Below, piece by piece: positions 3,410 through 45,370 of a DNA stretch of 64,000 nt (within the stretch, counting starts at the first letter, position 1; each line of letters starts with the position of its first letter). Under the pieces are notes generated by a model. That model was not told the DNA's origin. It saw nothing but the letters and a program-made list of their open reading frames with translations, and made no database searches. The translations under genes were made by a program, and so were the position numbers. This DNA is from Candidatus Saccharimonadota bacterium. GTDB lineage: Bacteria > Patescibacteriota > Saccharimonadia > Saccharimonadales > Saccharimonadaceae. The stretch lies in contig JAFWNB010000002.1 of NCBI GenBank assembly GCA_017545505.1, positions 1 through 64,000 of the forward strand, in the 5' to 3' direction.

Positions 3410-5062
3410 ATGGATAAGAATAAATCAATTGATGGGCTAGTTACCAAACGCTCTAAAAAAGCGTCTACCAAATCGTCTCCCAAAAAGCCCACCGCAAAAA
3501 AACCGGTCGCAAAAAAACCTACTACCAAGAAAACTACCCCTAAAATCGCCCCAAAAGCTAAAAAGGTTGTTAAAGTTTCCGCGCCAGAAGAAACACCCAA
3601 AAACCCAGTTGTTAGCCCCGTCGAAGATTTTCTCACCCCAGTTCAAGCCTTTAATTTTAATGAAGAAAGTGGCAAACTAGAAGCCGTGAGCGCCGATCAA
3701 ATTAAATCAACTAAAAAGCCCAAAAAAGAAAAGAAAAAACATAGCAAAAAATTTAAAATCACCTGGACCATCATCACAATTATTTTTGTACTCTTAATCG
3801 GCGCTGCTATCTGGTTTATTCTATGGGGTAACGATATTATTGCCAAAATCACTGGTGGCCAAGGTAATGTTTTTGACCTCATCTTTCAAGACGAAACCTA
3901 TGTAGATTTAAAAACCGACGAAAATGGTCGCACTAATATTCTTGCTTTCGGAACCAGCGGATATGATATGAATGGCGAAGAAGGAGGTGGGGTCCACGAC
4001 GGAGCACAACTAACCGACTCAATTATGGTTATTAGCCTAAACCAAGAAACTGGAGACGTAGCTATGCTATCTCTTCCAAGAGATCTCAAAGCCTCACCTA
4101 CCTGTACAGCTACCGGTAAAATTAATGAGGTTTATTGGTGTAATGGCGGAAATGGTAATGCTACGACAGAAGAAGAATCCGAAGCTGCAAACTCTCTAAT
4201 GGAGGAAGTTGGTAACATTCTTGGAATTGATTTTCAATATTTTGCCCATTTAAACTGGGGTTCCCTTTCACAAATTGTAGATACACTCGGTGGCGTTAAT
4301 ATTACTTTAGACGAAGATATCATGGACCATTACTATACCGGTGCCGTATTTGAAGCAGGTAAAGAATATACCATTAATGGAGCTCAAGCCGTAGGTCTAG
4401 CCAGAGCTCGCCATGGCACCACTAGTGGTGATTTTTCTCGTGGGGCTTCACAACAAAAAATACTGATTGGAATAAAAGACAAAATTCTTGAAAAAGGTTT
4501 ATCTATTACCGATATTATTAGTCTTGCCAGTACACTCGGAGATAATCTTCGCACGAATTTTTCAATAGACGAGATGAAATCTCTCGCCCACCTCTCCACT
4601 ACCTTTGACTTTAATAATATTCGTCAACTTTCACTCCTGGAGCCAGATCGCCTTATGACTACCTCCACTATCAACGGTATTTCATATGTCATTCCAGTTG
4701 GTGGAGCCAATTACTATACCAAAATTCAATCATATATCGATAAACAATTAGACAACGACCCACGCGTTTATGAAGATGCCTCTATATTAGTGCTAAATGC
4801 TACAGAAACCCCAGGTCTCGCCTCCGCCGAACAACAAAACCTCGAAGAAGAAGGCTATACCAATATAACTACTGGTGACACTCCAGCTGGAGACTATACC
4901 GAAGAGTACACTCTTTACACCCTAACCGACACTGCTCCTGGCACCAAAAAACTTCTGGAAGAAAAATACAATATCACTTCCTCTTCCACTGAAACCCTCC
5001 CAGAAGACATCTCCCGCGATTATGATTTTGTTATTGTAATTAGTAATTTGGAATTAAATTAA
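3410..5062 (+). CDS. LCP (LytR-CpsA-Psr) family cell-wall ligase with LytR C-terminal domain
   Basis: 550 residues. LCP enzymes move lipid-linked glycopolymers onto peptidoglycan at the outer face of the membrane. The N-terminal 115 residues are cytoplasmic and extremely Lys/Pro-rich with KKPxAKK-type repeats (about 25-50), resembling histone-H1 tails. A transmembrane helix spans about 117-139. The LCP domain (about 165-370) shows LTDSIMVISL, SLPRDLKA, the GGVNITLDED strand, NGAQAVGLARARH and DFSRGASQQ, including the arginines that bind pyrophosphate. A LytR_C domain occupies about 455-545. It is divergent from the lexA-like gene and its last codons form the left arm of a large palindrome with jag. 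The basic tail might bind DNA or anionic polymer; that is speculation. Confidence 0.9.
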   Translation: MDKNKSIDGLVTKRSKKASTKSSPKKPTAKKPVAKKPTTKKTTPKIAPKAKKVVKVSAPEETPKNPVVSPVEDFLTPVQAFNFNEESGKLEAVSADQIKSTKKPKKEKKKHSKKFKITWTIITIIFVLLIGAAIWFILWGNDIIAKITGGQGNVFDLIFQDETYVDLKTDENGRTNILAFGTSGYDMNGEEGGGVHDGAQLTDSIMVISLNQETGDVAMLSLPRDLKASPTCTATGKINEVYWCNGGNGNATTEEESEAANSLMEEVGNILGIDFQYFAHLNWGSLSQIVDTLGGVNITLDEDIMDHYYTGAVFEAGKEYTINGAQAVGLARARHGTTSGDFSRGASQQKILIGIKDKILEKGLSITDIISLASTLGDNLRTNFSIDEMKSLAHLSTTFDFNNIRQLSLLEPDRLMTTSTINGISYVIPVGGANYYTKIQSYIDKQLDNDPRVYEDASILVLNATETPGLASAEQQNLEEEGYTNITTGDTPAGDYTEEYTLYTLTDTAPGTKKLLEEKYNITSSSTETLPEDISRDYDFVIVISNLELN

Positions 5063-5213
5063 TACTATTTGAAGCATTTTTGAAATTGCCCAATAAAAAA
5101 TCACAACGGTCACGAGCTGAGCACGAAACTGAAATTTCGGCGCAAGCTCGCCTGATCCGTTGTAATTTTTATATGGCGCTATTTCAAAGCTGAAAATAGT
5201 ATTAATTTAATTC
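5051..5213. repeat. 163-bp imperfect palindrome joining two convergent genes
   Basis: The outer 20 bp are exact inverted copies (5051-5070 and 5194-5213) and contain the final codons and stops of both the LCP gene and jag. Imperfect pairing continues inwards (a CACAACGG-type segment at 5102-5109 against CCGTTGT at 5157-5163, then CGAGCT against AGCTCG) to a GC-richer centre near 5120-5145. It could act as a bidirectional terminator, but no long T run follows the stem, and the related elements inside valS and tsaD suggest a mobile palindrome. Confidence 0.8.
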
Positions 5214-22106: not shown

Positions 22107-24824
22107 ATGAAGTTTTCTAGTAGTTATGAACCGGGGGAATATGAATCAGAGATTTATGCCGCTTGGGAGGCCAGTGGTATTTTTAATCCTGCAGTCCCTA
22201 CTATACCAATAGATAATGATGGCGATGGTATAGACGATCGTAGTAAAACTAACACTTATAGCATCGTCATGCCTCCACCAAATGCTAACGGAAATCTACA
22301 TATTGGCCATGGGCTCACTGTTGCACTAGAAGACTCTCTCACCCGTTATTATCGTTTAAGAGGTAAATCTACATGGTATATTCCAGGTGCCGACCACGCT
22401 GGTTTTGAAACCTGGGTTGTATATGAACGTGAGCTAGAAAAACATGGACATACGCGTTTTGAATATGATCGCGATGAGCTATACTCTCGTGTTTGGAATT
22501 TTGTCGCCGAACAGCGCGGCAACATGGAGCTTCAACTTCGCGCTCTTGGTGCATCTTGCGCTTGGGATGATTTAACTTTCACTCTTGATGAAAATGTTAT
22601 TGATCGTGTCTATACGACATTTGAAAAAATGTGGAATGATGGTCTCGTTTACAGAGGTGAAAAATTAGTTAACTATTGTCCAAAACATCAAACAGCTTTT
22701 GCTGATATAGAAGTAGAACACCAAGACGAAAAAGGTACACTTTGGGATATTGAATACAGATTAGCGGAAAATACCGATTTAGATGCTGTAATTGTAAGTA
22801 CTACTCGTCCAGAAACTCTTTTCGGCGATACGGCCGTAGCTGTCAATCCTGCAGATCCGCGCTACAAAGAATTGATTGGTAAATATGTAGAATTACCACT
22901 CACGGATCGCAAAATTCCAATTATTGCCGATGAACACGCCGATCCAGAGTTTGGTACCGGAGTTGTTAAAATTACCCCGGCACACGATTTTGATGATTTT
23001 GAGGTCGGAAATCGCCATAATCTCGAACGAATCCAGGTAATTTCCGAAGATGGACACATGGTAAATGTTCCAGAAAAATATTTTGGTCTTACCACCTCCG
23101 ATTGTCGCAAAGAAGTCCTAAAAGACCTCAAAGAGCAAGGACTTTTAAAAGACGAGAAAAAAATTGTTCATTCTGTCGCGCATTGTTATAAATGTGGCAC
23201 CATTTTGGAGCCGATGTTAAAAGAGCAATGGTTTATTGACGTAGAAAAACTCGCAAGCGTTGCAATTTCACATCTTGAAGCAAACGAAATTAAGTTCTAT
23301 CCAGAAAACAAGCAAAAAGTCCTTATTAATTATTTAAAAGGTCTTAAAGATTGGAATATTTCTCGTCAAATTCCTTGGGGTATTGCTATCCCGATGTTTA
23401 GAAAAGTCGATGTCTCAGCCACCGATGAGCCAGATTGGATCTTTGACCGTCGCACCAATCTAAAAGAAATCGAAAAAGCCGGCGTTAAATATGTTCGTGA
23501 TGAAGATACTTTTGATACTTGGTTTTCAAGCTCTCATTGGCCAATCGTTTGTACAAATTGGACTGCAGAAAACAATAATCCATACTATCCATTAAATGTG
23601 ATGGAAACCGGTGCCGATATCTTATTTGCCTGGGTGGCTCGCATGATTATGATGGGAATCTATGTTACCGGCGAAGTGCCATTTAAAGCAGTCTATTTGC
23701 ATGGTCTCGTTCTGGACGCCGAAGGTAAAAAGATGAGTAAATCTAAAGGTAACGTTATTAATCCTATGGATCTTGTTGCAAAATACGGTTCTGACGCTTT
23801 TCGTCTTGGTATTCTTCGTGGCCGCTCCGCCGGCATGAATCAAGCTTTCTCTGAAAATTCTGTCATCGCAGGCCGCAATCTCACCAACAAACTCTGGAAC
23901 ATCTCCCGCCTCATCCAAAGTATTATAGATGAGGAATTCGAGGATAATACCATTGAGGGGCTTCCGGAGGCTGCTGCCGAGGATGAGCGCCCGAACCCCG
24001 TGAAGACGGGAGTGAGGGACGCGACCCGAAATGGTATTATCTCGAATTCTTATACTACAAACAATATGGGTGAAGACTGGATTTGCCGCGAAATAAACAA
24101 TTGTCTAGAGCAAGTCGAAAAATCTATGAGAGGATATCGTTTTGCCGAAGCAGTTGAAACTTTATATCAGACGATTTGGGACAAATATGCCGATTGGTTT
24201 ATCGAAAGTCAAAAAATATTTAAAAATACCTCACTCTTGAAGAAAACTCTCGAAACCTTATTAATAGCGCTACATCCTTTCGCTCCTTTTGTCACTGAGG
24301 CGATTTGGCAAAATCTTAGCTGGACGGATGGTTTTATTGCTACCGCTAATTGGCCAGCAAAGCTTAAATATGACCCAATTTCAGCCGAAAACTTTGAAAA
24401 CATAAGAATTATCGTGTCTGAAGTCAGAGCCACCTTACAGGCCCTTCCAGGCACCAATAACGCGAAATATCCATTATTATATGACAACGATAGCCTGGTT
24501 GCAGAAAATGAGCTCTTAATTAAAACACTTACGAAAGCTCCGACCATCAATTCTCTTAATGGTTCCCCGCGTGGACTACGACTAGCCCTTGCTAATCACG
24601 AAGTATATCTTGATGTGTCTGAATCAGTTGTAAATAATTATAAAGAAGCTCTCACAGAAAAAATACTTGCCGTAGGCCGTGAACTGGATGCTCTTAATGC
24701 TCGCATGATGAACCCAAATTACGTAGAAAAAGCCCCAGCTCACCTCGTCAAAGAAACCACCGACCAAATCAAAGAAAAAGAATCTCTCATCTCCCGCCTA
24801 AAACAACAATTAGAGATTGTTTAG
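22107..24824 (+). CDS. valS: Valyl-tRNA synthetase with palindromic in-frame insertion
   Basis: 905 residues. Class I synthetase charging tRNA-Val. The HIGH motif is within PPPNANGNLHIGHGL (about 52-66), the CP1 editing domain shows STTRPETLFGDTAV, and KMSKSKGN carries the second ATP motif. The anticodon-binding domain and a C-terminal coiled coil (KEKESLISRLKQQLEI) follow. Residues about 610-648 (EFEDNTIEGLPEAAAEDE onwards) are encoded by a 116-bp GC-rich palindrome at the junction of the catalytic and anticodon domains and look foreign to the family. The frame stays open, so the enzyme should be active with a surface loop. Transcription is predicted to be leaderless. Confidence 0.97.
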   Translation: MKFSSSYEPGEYESEIYAAWEASGIFNPAVPTIPIDNDGDGIDDRSKTNTYSIVMPPPNANGNLHIGHGLTVALEDSLTRYYRLRGKSTWYIPGADHAGFETWVVYERELEKHGHTRFEYDRDELYSRVWNFVAEQRGNMELQLRALGASCAWDDLTFTLDENVIDRVYTTFEKMWNDGLVYRGEKLVNYCPKHQTAFADIEVEHQDEKGTLWDIEYRLAENTDLDAVIVSTTRPETLFGDTAVAVNPADPRYKELIGKYVELPLTDRKIPIIADEHADPEFGTGVVKITPAHDFDDFEVGNRHNLERIQVISEDGHMVNVPEKYFGLTTSDCRKEVLKDLKEQGLLKDEKKIVHSVAHCYKCGTILEPMLKEQWFIDVEKLASVAISHLEANEIKFYPENKQKVLINYLKGLKDWNISRQIPWGIAIPMFRKVDVSATDEPDWIFDRRTNLKEIEKAGVKYVRDEDTFDTWFSSSHWPIVCTNWTAENNNPYYPLNVMETGADILFAWVARMIMMGIYVTGEVPFKAVYLHGLVLDAEGKKMSKSKGNVINPMDLVAKYGSDAFRLGILRGRSAGMNQAFSENSVIAGRNLTNKLWNISRLIQSIIDEEFEDNTIEGLPEAAAEDERPNPVKTGVRDATRNGIISNSYTTNNMGEDWICREINNCLEQVEKSMRGYRFAEAVETLYQTIWDKYADWFIESQKIFKNTSLLKKTLETLLIALHPFAPFVTEAIWQNLSWTDGFIATANWPAKLKYDPISAENFENIRIIVSEVRATLQALPGTNNAKYPLLYDNDSLVAENELLIKTLTKAPTINSLNGSPRGLRLALANHEVYLDVSESVVNNYKEALTEKILAVGRELDALNARMMNPNYVEKAPAHLVKETTDQIKEKESLISRLKQQLEIV
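23934..24049. repeat. 116-bp GC-rich palindromic element inside valS
   Basis: Arms GAATTCGAGGATAATACCATT (23934-23954, written here as 21 bases of pairing with one bulge) and its inverse at 24030-24049 enclose a GC-rich core. The core segment 23992-24021 matches 22 of 30 positions of the tsaD element core (33370-33399). No stop codon is introduced in the valS frame. Confidence 0.8.
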
Positions 24825-31663: not shown

Positions 31664-32641
31664 ATGGAACCAAATAATAGCCCGGCCCCAACCGAAGCCC
31701 CAACTTCCACAGCGGAGCCGGTATCGCCAACTCAACCAATTAAATCCGAACCGATAAAACCAAATCCCATCACCTCCTCCAAAACTCTCATTTGGTGTCT
31801 CTCTATTTTGGCAATTATCGGCATCGTAGCAGCTGTAGTATTCGCTTATCTCTATTTTACAGTTCCAACCGCTCTACCAGCTTCCCCGACTTCAGATAAC
31901 CAAAGCTCCACTTCTACCGAATCAGAAACAGACGAAGAAGTCGCCATCACCGACCCACTAGTTAAAAAAGATCTAGATGAAAAAGTAGCCATTCTTCACG
32001 GCGTACTTTCAACCGAGCCGACATTCGCTTCTCAATTTCCTAATTATGGTGGTTTATTACTTGGTAGCGGTAATCTTCCTGAAGATGTAAGAATTAGTAA
32101 TGTGGCATATTGGCTATCCAATTATTTTTCAAGTCCTACAGACGATGAAATAAAAGCCATCATGGCCGATGGAGTATATACTGAAGAAGAAATAAACCAA
32201 GGACGTAAGTATATTGAGAGGATTGACGGTGAGCTAATGCGAGAAAAGTATCTAGAGGTTTTTGGCGAGGATATTAAACCTAATCCGCAAGGAGGTAACG
32301 GCTGCCCAGTCCATTACAACGACAAATATGATATATTCTACCGAGGATTAGATGGTTGCGGTGGTACTAGTGGCATCATCACCCATTATTATAAAAATGC
32401 TTACACCACAAAAGACGACAACGCCTACGTCTATGTCTCTGTAGCCGATTACAATTTAGAAGACAATAATATATATTGTGATTTCTATACAGAAAACAAT
32501 ACTAAGATCTGCGGTACGGCCACAGACCGAGACGATGTTGTATTAAATGAATCCAATTATAAAGATTATGCCCAGTACCGAATTGTCTTCAAAAAATCAG
32601 ATAAAGGGACTTATTACTTCGTTAAAGCCGAAAAACTCTAG
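31664..32641 (+). CDS. Membrane-anchored extracellular protein with proline-rich head
   Basis: 325 residues. A Pro/Thr/Ser/Glu-rich cytoplasmic head (1-40) precedes a transmembrane helix at about 44-67, a Ser/Thr-rich linker and an extracellular domain. The last third has four cysteines (GGNGCPVHY, LDGCGGT, YCDFY, KICGTA) likely to form disulphides, and ends with beta-type strands (YRIVFKKSDKGTYYFVKAEKL). The leader carries AAAGGAG. Its final 4 bases overlap the end of the convergent tsaD gene. No family recognised; the architecture resembles other anchored proteins in this window. Confidence 0.7.
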   Translation: MEPNNSPAPTEAPTSTAEPVSPTQPIKSEPIKPNPITSSKTLIWCLSILAIIGIVAAVVFAYLYFTVPTALPASPTSDNQSSTSTESETDEEVAITDPLVKKDLDEKVAILHGVLSTEPTFASQFPNYGGLLLGSGNLPEDVRISNVAYWLSNYFSSPTDDEIKAIMADGVYTEEEINQGRKYIERIDGELMREKYLEVFGEDIKPNPQGGNGCPVHYNDKYDIFYRGLDGCGGTSGIITHYYKNAYTTKDDNAYVYVSVADYNLEDNNIYCDFYTENNTKICGTATDRDDVVLNESNYKDYAQYRIVFKKSDKGTYYFVKAEKL

Positions 32642-33798
32642 TTTTCAATTGATATTCTAGGATAAATATTTAGTTTAAAAGGGTCCACTGGTTTTATTCC
32701 AGTTTGAATTTCATAATAACATGCTGCCGCTACCATTGCTCCATTATCTCCAGACAACGAAGGAGTAGGAAAAAATACAGAATAAGCAGAAAAATGCTTT
32801 TCAGCCTCTTCTCTAAGCAGTTTATTTGCGCTCACTCCTCCTGCCACTACTACTGACTTTGTATCTGGGTGCTCCCCTAATGCCGTCTCAACCTTTTCAC
32901 ACAAAATATCTACCGCAGTTTTTTGGAAAGAAGCTGCAAAATCAGTAATCTGTCGAGGCGTCAACAACTCAGCTAGTTTATGCGAAGGATAAGAAATTGG
33001 TACTCCCACCTCTTTTTGGACGGTTCTTAATACGGCAGTCTTAAGTCCTGAAAAGGAAAAATCTAATCCCTCCACCTTTGGATGTGGAAACTTGTATTTC
33101 TCGGCATCCCCGTCGGAAGCAGCTGAAGCAATTGATGGTCCACCTGGATATGGCAAACCTAAAATTTTCGCTACTTTATCAAAACACTCCCCCACCGCAT
33201 CATCTCTCGTCGTCCCGACAATCTTAAATTGATTATGACCCGCCATATAAAGAATTTGCGTATGCCCACCTGACACCACTAATGCCAGCAAAGGGAATGA
33301 CGGCGTAGAAGAATCTGAAAGATACTCATCTGAGGAGCATAATCGCCGACGGTGCGATTGCGAAGCGACCGAAGCCTGTAACGACGGGCCTGAGGGAGCG
33401 TTCCGAAGAGGAGTATTTTCAGATTCGTGCGAATCAAGCCAATTCGCATACACATGTGACTTCAGGTGGTGTACCGCATATAACGGTTTTTTTTGCAAAA
33501 TAGCCAACGTTCTCGCTGTTAGTGTTCCAATTAAAAGCGACCCCAGAAGCCCAGGCGCAAAAGTAACTGCAACCGCATCTATATCATCCCAAGAACAGGA
33601 AGCATCTTTTAGGGCTTTATCTATCACCGGCATCATCGCTTCCAAGTGGCTTCTTGCTGCCACCTCTGGTATTACACCGCCATATTCTGCAAAAATATCG
33701 ATCTGGCTCACCACTACATTCGACAAGATTTCTGCTCCATCGCGAACCACGGCTGCAGCCGTCTCATCGCAACTTGTCTCTATCCCTAAAATATTCAT
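32638..33798 (-). CDS. tsaD: tRNA threonylcarbamoyladenosine synthesis protein TsaD with palindromic insertion
   Basis: 386 residues against about 340 normally. TsaD transfers threonylcarbamoyl to A37 of ANN-decoding tRNAs. It begins MNILGIETSCDETAAAV; metal-binding histidines are in HLKSHVYAN; LALVVSGGHTQI and VVVAGGVSANKLLREE are diagnostic. Between HVYANWL and LLALVV lies an extra stretch of about 40 residues (125-163, Ser/Arg/Pro-rich), encoded by a 116-bp GC-rich palindrome; ordinary TsaD has only a few residues there. The promoter is leaderless. The partners TsaB, TsaC and TsaE are not in this window. Confidence 0.96.
   Translation of the reverse strand: MNILGIETSCDETAAAVVRDGAEILSNVVVSQIDIFAEYGGVIPEVAARSHLEAMMPVIDKALKDASCSWDDIDAVAVTFAPGLLGSLLIGTLTARTLAILQKKPLYAVHHLKSHVYANWLDSHESENTPLRNAPSGPSLQASVASQSHRRRLCSSDEYLSDSSTPSFPLLALVVSGGHTQILYMAGHNQFKIVGTTRDDAVGECFDKVAKILGLPYPGGPSIASAASDGDAEKYKFPHPKVEGLDFSFSGLKTAVLRTVQKEVGVPISYPSHKLAELLTPRQITDFAASFQKTAVDILCEKVETALGEHPDTKSVVVAGGVSANKLLREEAEKHFSAYSVFFPTPSLSGDNGAMVAAACYYEIQTGIKPVDPFKLNIYPRISIEN
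33311..33426. repeat. 116-bp GC-rich palindromic element inside tsaD
   Basis: Arms GAATCTGAAAGATACTC (33311-33327) and the inverse at 33411-33426 enclose a core related to the valS element at 33370-33399 and to the element at 44748-44827 near its right end (GGAGCGTTCCGAAGAGGAG against GGAGCGCTCCCGAGGAGGAG). It lies in opposite orientation relative to its host gene compared with valS, yet keeps the frame open. Confidence 0.8.
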
Positions 33799-44183: not shown

Positions 44184-44744
44184 ATGTACGGACCAACTGA
44201 TTTAAAGAAAAATACCCTCATCACTTTAGACGGCCAACCATACAAAGTGATTGAGTATTCTCAAAAAGTTATGGGCCGGGGTGGTTCCATCGTTAATGTT
44301 AAGGTTAAGAATCTTATTACCGGCGCCCTTCTTCCTAAAACTTTTAAAGGCCAAGAAAAAATTGAGCCAGCCGAAGTCACGACTCGTAAAGTACAGTACC
44401 TATATAAAGACGATGAAAAGTTTTATTTTATGGACCCAGAGTCTTTTGAGCAATACGAGCTATCTAGTGATATGGTCGGCGAGTCTAGTGACTTCATGAA
44501 AGACGGTGACGAAATGGAAATTCAATTCTATAACGGCACACCAATCAATTTACAATTGCCCAAAAACATTTGGCTAGAAGTTACATATACCGAAAATGCC
44601 GTCAAAGGTGATACTACTAGCTCTGTCATGAAGGATGCTACTCTAGAAACTGGCGTAGTCATCAAAGTTCCTGCTTTCATTAAAGAAGGCGATATCGTCT
44701 CAGTAGACACAGAAACTTACGCCTACAGGGAAAGACGTAAATAA
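44184..44744 (+). CDS. efp: Elongation factor P with arginine at the tip
   Basis: 186 residues. EF-P relieves ribosome stalling at proline runs. The domain I tip loop reads VMGRGGS, so the residue that is Lys34 in E. coli is Arg; Lys34-type enzymes (EpmA/B) would not fit, and rhamnosylating EarP-type modification or no modification is possible. Domains II and III are normal (YLYKDDEKFYFMDPESFEQYEL, GVVIKVPAFIKEGDIVSVDTETYAYRER). AGGAGG lies 6 nt before ATG. It shares one base with the next gene. Confidence 0.95.
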   Translation: MYGPTDLKKNTLITLDGQPYKVIEYSQKVMGRGGSIVNVKVKNLITGALLPKTFKGQEKIEPAEVTTRKVQYLYKDDEKFYFMDPESFEQYELSSDMVGESSDFMKDGDEMEIQFYNGTPINLQLPKNIWLEVTYTENAVKGDTTSSVMKDATLETGVVIKVPAFIKEGDIVSVDTETYAYRERRK

Positions 44745-45370
44745 TGAGAGACCAAAAAATCTCATCCGAGGGAGTAAGACTCGGCCTAGCGGCCCGGAGC
44801 GCTCCCGAGGAGGAGATTTTTAGTCTCCGTGGTTACAGAAAAATCGCAGGAGCCGCTCGGGCATTTAATTTTAATTTTAAAAATAAGGTCGTGCTAGATA
44901 TTGGCTCCTCGACCGGTGGTTTTACAAAGTATGCTCTAGATCACGGCGCAAAAAAAGTAATTGCCGTAGAAAAGGGTACTAATCAAATGATGTCACCTCT
45001 GCGACACGATCCACGTATTGATCTTCGTGAAAAGACCGATATTTTTGATTGTAAAATTGAGGGAATAGATGTCGTCGTCGCAGATGTCTCGTTTATCTCG
45101 CTGACAAAAGTTTTAGCACACGCTAAAAAGCGTCTAGCTGGTAAAAATACAGATTTTTTAGTTATGTTAAAGCCTCAATTTGAGGCTAAGTCGTATCAAT
45201 TGGTTAATGGCATTATTAAAAATGAAAAAATACGTCGCGAAATCATCAAAAGCTTTGAAATGTGGTTAAAAAATAATAATTTTGTAATCATAGATAAGCG
45301 CGACAATCAACTAAAAGGCAAAAATGGCAACCAAGAAAGATTTTACTGGTTAAAACAACCAATAAAATAA
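44744..45370 (+). CDS. TlyA-type rRNA 2'-O-methyltransferase lacking the S4 domain
   Basis: 208 residues. The catalytic part matches FtsJ/TlyA enzymes: FKNKVVLDIGSSTGGFTKYALDHGAKKVIAVEKG (SAM site about 47-80), VVVADVSFISLTKVL and FLVMLKPQFEA. TlyA enzymes methylate 16S and 23S rRNA and normally carry an N-terminal S4 domain, absent here. The first 28 codons consist of an 80-bp palindromic element that begins right after the ATG and keeps the frame open, so the true original start may have been altered. The ATG overlaps the efp stop (TAATG). Confidence 0.85.
   Translation: MRDQKISSEGVRLGLAARSAPEEEIFSLRGYRKIAGAARAFNFNFKNKVVLDIGSSTGGFTKYALDHGAKKVIAVEKGTNQMMSPLRHDPRIDLREKTDIFDCKIEGIDVVVADVSFISLTKVLAHAKKRLAGKNTDFLVMLKPQFEAKSYQLVNGIIKNEKIRREIIKSFEMWLKNNNFVIIDKRDNQLKGKNGNQERFYWLKQPIK
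44748..44827. repeat. 80-bp GC-rich palindromic element at the 5' end of the tlyA-like gene
   Basis: Arms GAGACCAAAAAATCTC (44748-44763) and inverse GAGATTTTTAGTCTC (44813-44827) enclose a GC-rich core whose right part (GGAGCGCTCCCGAGGAGGAG) matches the tsaD element. It encodes residues 3-28. Confidence 0.75.

Follow-up and report, generated by a model that had tools for sequence, protein, structure and literature searches.

The palindromic segment within the valyl-tRNA synthetase gene (valS) is probably a member of a family of small mobile hairpins that is confined to one genus and would spread and be renewed through replication template switching with no dedicated transposase. Copies of the family are dispersed and restricted to the genus, their cores are independent of the arms that enclose them, the reading frame is retained, pairing is apparent at the level of DNA, cores are exchanged and inverted, and empty as well as scar alleles exist.

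The palindrome in valS

The window, here meaning the complete stretch of 64,000 nucleotides that was analyzed, contains valS with a reading frame that stays open across the entire palindrome, as recovered in the ORF list (Table 1). In the encoded ValRS, Pfam assigns residues 44-570 to the catalytic tRNA-synt_1 domain and 657-777 to Anticodon_1, locating the palindrome between the catalytic and anticodon-binding domains. Alignment with the T. thermophilus enzyme (1GAX) opens a gap at the very same site, the query jumping from 603 to 654 versus 589 to 605 in the chain, where the 1GAX linker comprises 15 residues. The ORF, the Pfam domains, the 1GAX alignment and the fold are congruent with the initial annotation, which had described a 116-bp palindrome in frame between the two domains. 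Its figure of about 39 added residues is however reduced to a net gain of about 30-33, considering that the shortest empty valS linkers in the genus span 69-78 nt (L083, L084, L110 and L113) versus 168 nt here. The linker is variable in all orthologues compared, and the ValRS peptides encoded across the core include EGLPEAAAEDERPNPVK.

Table 1. Coordinates of valS, the parts of its palindrome and related elements in the window
Feature	Position	Strand	Basis or remark
valS (valyl-tRNA synthetase, 905 aa), host gene	22107..24824	+	ORF; Pfam tRNA-synt_1 and Anticodon_1; 1GAX alignment
Left arm GAATTCGAGGATAATACCATT, locus-specific	23934..23954	+	Gapped inverted-repeat scan; absent from other copies
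Core, 75 nt, shared and probably the mobile unit: base helix, side hairpin GGAGGCTGCTGCCGAG, long hairpin with CCCGTGAAGACGGG, GA/GA junctions	23955..24029	+	
Right arm AATGGTATTATCTCGAATTC, reverse complement of the left arm bar a one-base bulge	24030..24049	+	
Related palindromic element inside tsaD (gene 32638-33798), in frame	33311..33426	-	R1 31 bits; inverted-repeat scan
Third element, smaller core family (GGGAGTAAGACTCGGCCTAGCGGCCCGGAGCGCTCCC)	44748..44827	+	Forms the N-terminus of ORF 44744-45370

The element at 23934-24049 consists of 116 bases, with arms of 20-21 nt flanking a 75-nt core whose G+C content is 71%, versus 37.7% across the window. As RNA, positions 23925-24062 reach a minimum free energy of -65.6 kcal/mol (z = -9.0), and none of 200 shuffled sequences folded equally low. 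Inverted repeats scoring at least 15 number 17 in the window, versus at most one in third-order Markov sequences of the same length; because of the one-base bulge, the valS hairpin is missed by an ungapped scan and detected by a gapped one. Covariation within the core amounts to 0.327, versus 0.110 when shuffled (none of 500 as high) and 0.016-0.079 when slid, and compensatory change has altered both sides in 11 of the 22 core pairs. Judged by these substitutions, the core is a covarying branched hairpin with GA/GA junctions. Its extent, initially given as 23992-24032, is corrected to 23955-24029. An Rfam scan of the element returned nothing at the gathering score, the best hit attaining 15.6 bits versus a cut-off of 41.2.

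Related copies in the genome and the genus

Searching the 707-kb genome with blastn and with R1, a covariance model derived from 32 copies, we recovered 11 core copies, and the further copies foreseen by the initial annotation thus do exist. The genic copies, residing in valS, leuS, polA, der, truB, recX, tsaD, a methyltransferase and a Wzy-type gene, are all in frame, and two of the 11 lie outside clear ORFs, upstream of ruvB in one case and close to an rplL-like gene in the other. The core in tsaD, early on thought to be related to that of valS, is identical to it at 35 of 45 bases, has the opposite orientation relative to its gene, and is part of a palindrome in its own right. The smaller core family of the third element is also present in recX of related species; the later part of the ORF that begins with this element resembles a SAM-dependent methyltransferase (DIGSSTGGF). 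Elsewhere in the window, a hairpin of 163 bp at 5051-5213, possibly representing another family, is bounded by 20-bp outer arms that pair perfectly (GAATTAAATTAATACTATTT) and has a CGAAACTGAAATTTCGG stem at its center; an ORF ending at 5062 shares its final bases with the left arm, and most of the hairpin falls between two convergent genes.

That the valS segment is an ordinary fast-evolving protein linker, palindromic by chance, would fit the variability of this site in all orthologues, but the core DNA is also present in unrelated genes, where it takes three phases and either orientation and shows compensatory changes, and z is -9. The multi-copy core refutes this option, to which we attach practically no weight.

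Across the genus, 155 of 174 genomes contain R1 matches (E <= 1e-6), many with at least 20 copies, and none were detected in 237 genomes from other genera of the phylum; the family is genus-specific and abundant. The exact pattern GAGCCCCGTNANGACGGGCGCGAG, queried against 84,980 species genomes, recovered exclusively Candidatus Saccharibacteria among the matches listed, many of these records being labelled ruminant gut. Scanning IMG/VR for the shared hairpin yielded no match, thus no phage carrier was found, and phage was set aside as a vehicle. One locus (L031, G053:C22) holds four element copies within about 2.2 kb, in both orientations, at approximately 496-593, 1488-1583, 1989-2087 and 2570-2667. 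In the upstream flank of another (L051), less than about 270 nt from the core, a second palindrome of a different family (GTTTGGTTTGGGACC...GTGTGTCCCAAACCAAAC) is found beside a type-A element in a Wzy_C-type gene region. Titles, abstracts and term counts from the literature on palindromic, inverted-repeat or hairpin elements of Saccharibacteria or Patescibacteria revealed no description of such a family, in agreement with the original remark that none was known for this lineage, and the hairpin family is apparently undescribed so far.

A common core in local arms

Copies at unrelated loci have the core in common and differ in their arms. In two close species, 64-84 nt are shared at 95-98% identity between non-orthologous copies that differ in their arms (L144/L145, L144/L147 and L148/L151), and these blocks of identity stop at or near the core boundary. 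No terminal repeats are common to the copies compared, and the arms are unique to each locus, congruent with the early proposal that they represent local sequence. Several core families with related hairpin modules can be distinguished (A, B, C and D, with others at valS and recX). As one part of the explanation that we consider probable when taken as a whole, the moving unit would be the core of about 75 nt, the arms of 15-25 nt being host sequence at each site.

Reading frame and pairing

Palindromic copies were counted on both strands and the count halved, giving about 215 distinct copies; about 143 of them are flanked by a long ORF on either side. As many as 120 of these (about 84%) are in frame and stop-free, versus one third expected in frame by chance (p ~1e-36, for frame alone and ignoring relatedness), and the exceptions mostly appear to sit between two genes. 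The core of the in-frame copies occupies all three codon phases (about 55/42/23) and both orientations, no peptide being conserved as a result, and the strong bias for in-frame, stop-free copies suggests that the insert is translated, very probably without being spliced or bypassed. Removal or skipping at the RNA level, via splicing or byps-like ribosomal bypassing, such that the segment is missing from the protein, appears very unlikely; the hairpin is indeed very stable, and bypassed palindromes exist in yeast mitochondria according to work cited in PMC6649704, yet the strong frame bias would then be needless, and no Rfam intron or ribozyme match was obtained.

Mismatches in the sense-oriented arms of in-gene copies are G-U in 72 and A-C in 85 cases (p = 0.34, relatedness ignored), with core mismatches at 13 versus 13 and 13 versus 8. 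Considering that a structure selected as RNA should favor G-U, this lack of an excess points to pairing made or kept at the DNA level; a G-U/A-C symmetry would also follow if pairs only decayed neutrally after insertion. Selection on DNA pairing would give the same pattern as arm renewal, in the symmetry as well as in the arm-templated residues. The mismatch data also bear on the idea that the hairpins serve a function as mRNA structures where domains meet, selected for pairing and involved in pausing for co-translational folding or in mRNA processing. Sites are often interdomain linkers (ValRS and Der), folding is strong and pairing is kept across species; however, besides the missing G-U excess over A-C, many copies are non-coding, many orthologues have no hairpin, and core family and orientation vary freely, rendering such a role improbable.

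Orthologous sites

In related species, the same sites hold a different core family, the core in inverted orientation, a scar from which the core is missing, or native empty sequence. Empty orthologous sites, which the initial annotation had proposed to look for, are thus available as the 69-78-nt valS linkers and as 60-nt recX sites, and many orthologues lack the hairpin instead of all close relatives carrying the same conserved segment. Hairpins with similar outer arms occupy most orthologous sites in both genomes of the close pairs G146/G047 and G056/G156. The same arms enclose different core families in L155/L180 and an inverted core in L148/L163, both comparisons being between close species. 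Such swapping and inversion of cores inside persisting arms was not part of the initial annotation, nor was pairing devoid of an RNA-level signature.

No clean empty site was present between close genome pairs, most orthologous sites holding another hairpin, and of the sites inspected the L164/L178 pair is the single case with an empty counterpart, which falls in a variable N-terminus. The sampling of one genome per species, with the closest pairs at 92-94%, captured no recent insertion between near-identical genomes, and insertion junctions and the template-switch path were consequently not seen. Between G056 and G156, hairpins differ at several sites (L146, L154 and L164 versus L150, L152 and L178) while the flanking genes are 92-97% identical, hence these sites evolve much faster than their surroundings.

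In recX, empty alleles are mostly 60 nt and contain a native helix (RDYLYKKIFEKKLDKNYI-II), and filled alleles are mostly 126-144 nt. Core families, as assigned by eye, occur in both orientations (A 3+/6-, C 4+/5-, D 3+/2-), and in L353 the arms are kept and the core is gone, leaving a scar. On a weakly supported recX tree, at least 7 filled/empty changes and at least 8 orientation changes are required; the several inversions at this one locus could represent separate insertions rather than flips. The conserved host codons of RKLR make up the left arm; their reverse complement forms the right arm, in place of native residues. A left K codon AAA is matched by TTT (Phe) on the right in 15 of 15 arm pairs, and AAG by CTT (Leu) in 7 of 7 (Fisher p 6e-6, read from the sequences with relatedness ignored), i.e. 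which of two synonymous codons stands in one arm is linked to the amino acid encoded by the other. As filled recX exceeds empty recX by approximately the core alone, the second flank looks rewritten, not added, and comparison of the two states uncovered no direct duplication; the gain in valS is nearer to the core plus one arm. The original idea of an inverted target duplication arising on insertion is borne out only in part.

Mobilization and proposed mechanism

The transposase survey covered the Y1 (HUH) family. Y1_Tnp was identified in 8 of 170 genomes and is missing from the present one, and being nearly absent from carriers it was dismissed as the mobilizer. The RVT_1 reverse transcriptase is encoded in 95 of 170 genomes, often as several proteins of 350-450 aa, but is absent from the present genome and from carriers with 14-18 copies (e.g. 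G003, G004, G025 and G026); there is thus no clear link to the hairpins, and this candidate was also rejected. With the enzyme in 95 genomes, an RNA route is possible in some lineages, and the RVT_1 proteins of the genus might be diversity-generating retroelements.

A non-autonomous MITE-like or REP-like element, mobilized in trans by a transposase or some other protein and with arms made complementary later by repair, would account for the multi-copy dispersal, the conserved structured core and the use of both orientations, and HUH enzymes act on hairpin DNA. We nevertheless find this unlikely, as conserved terminal repeats and target duplications were not seen, the arms are locus-specific and Y1_Tnp is scarce.

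The near absence of Y1/HUH enzymes and the lack of visible terminal repeats and target duplications, together with the lack of reverse transcriptase in the present genome and several rich carriers, leave template switching as the best-supported reading. During replication, the nascent strand would switch template to another hairpin and copy its core, then fold back onto its own arm, overwriting the flank across from it, and rejoin, a route for which no dedicated transposase would be needed. One flank would thereby match, or have come to match, the other in reverse complement, and core inversion and continual arm correction would arise by intrastrand switching from one arm to the other. Copies would persist in domain linkers, where the protein can accommodate them, and in short non-coding gaps, and would be kept only with an open frame, the peptide being made as a spacer. 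Most likely the hairpins have no host function and are selfish or mutation-driven DNA. A mobilizing protein of an unrecognized kind is possible, and filled alleles could spread by exchange between species. More tentatively, the family may exemplify transposase-free mobile DNA, whose cores propagate by polymerase template switching, rewrite a flank and are exchanged and inverted within arms, with synonymous changes dictating amino acids elsewhere in an essential protein.

Relation to known elements

Rickettsia palindromic elements (RPE) are palindromes of about 100-150 bp that form several families, are dispersed in frame in housekeeping ORFs and are translated (PMC10969869), and their repeat identity is lost with time (PMC6649704). 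The Saccharibacteria hairpins likewise measure about 100-150 bp and are scattered through unrelated genes with the frame kept, and the RPE-like nature initially proposed is upheld to the extent that this is an in-frame multi-copy element. They differ in that the arms are host-derived and locus-specific, with complementarity apparently renewed across species, and in that cores are swapped and inverted between the same arms. In RPE the whole palindrome, arms included, is conserved between copies, unlike the arms here, which differ from locus to locus. Considering the host-derived, apparently renewed arms and the exchanged, inverted cores, we do not claim RPE membership; compared by description, RPE appear to be the nearest known system in behavior.

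MITEs, REP/RAYT and IS200/IS605-derived hairpins are also non-autonomous dispersed palindromes; however, the Saccharibacteria hairpins lie inside essential genes, their carriers are almost without Y1 (8/170) in contrast to REP/RAYT or IS200/IS605 systems, and unlike MITEs the copies have no conserved termini or target duplication. The byps of Magnusiomyces and the GC clusters of yeast mitochondria are GC-rich hairpins dispersed in a compact genome, genes included. Byps remain untranslated by bypassing, whereas here the frame is kept open (120 of about 143). Coding palindromes of nematomorph mitochondria are perfect inverted repeats in translated genes with dynamic gain and loss, and their upkeep was proposed to reflect template-switch conversion, not function (PMC6649704), which the putative arm correction by intrastrand switching parallels. 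There, however, no shared mobile core exists, both arms encode conserved protein, and the setting is mitochondrial. Aggregated, the family is apparently a variant of in-frame palindromic parasite with an unusual mode of upkeep.

In-frame selfish palindromes were previously known mainly from Rickettsia and mitochondria. The Saccharibacteria, mostly uncultured and with reduced genomes, add a family that 155 of the 174 species sampled from one genus carry, and its host genes include essential ones for aminoacyl-tRNA synthetases, GTPases and DNA polymerase I. With alleles that are filled, empty, swapped, inverted or reduced to a scar, both the movement of the elements and the upkeep of perfect palindromes become directly testable. 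The findings point to DNA structure, and not selection on the protein, as what sets amino acids in essential enzymes, and insertions annotated in such proteins may turn out to be DNA parasites.
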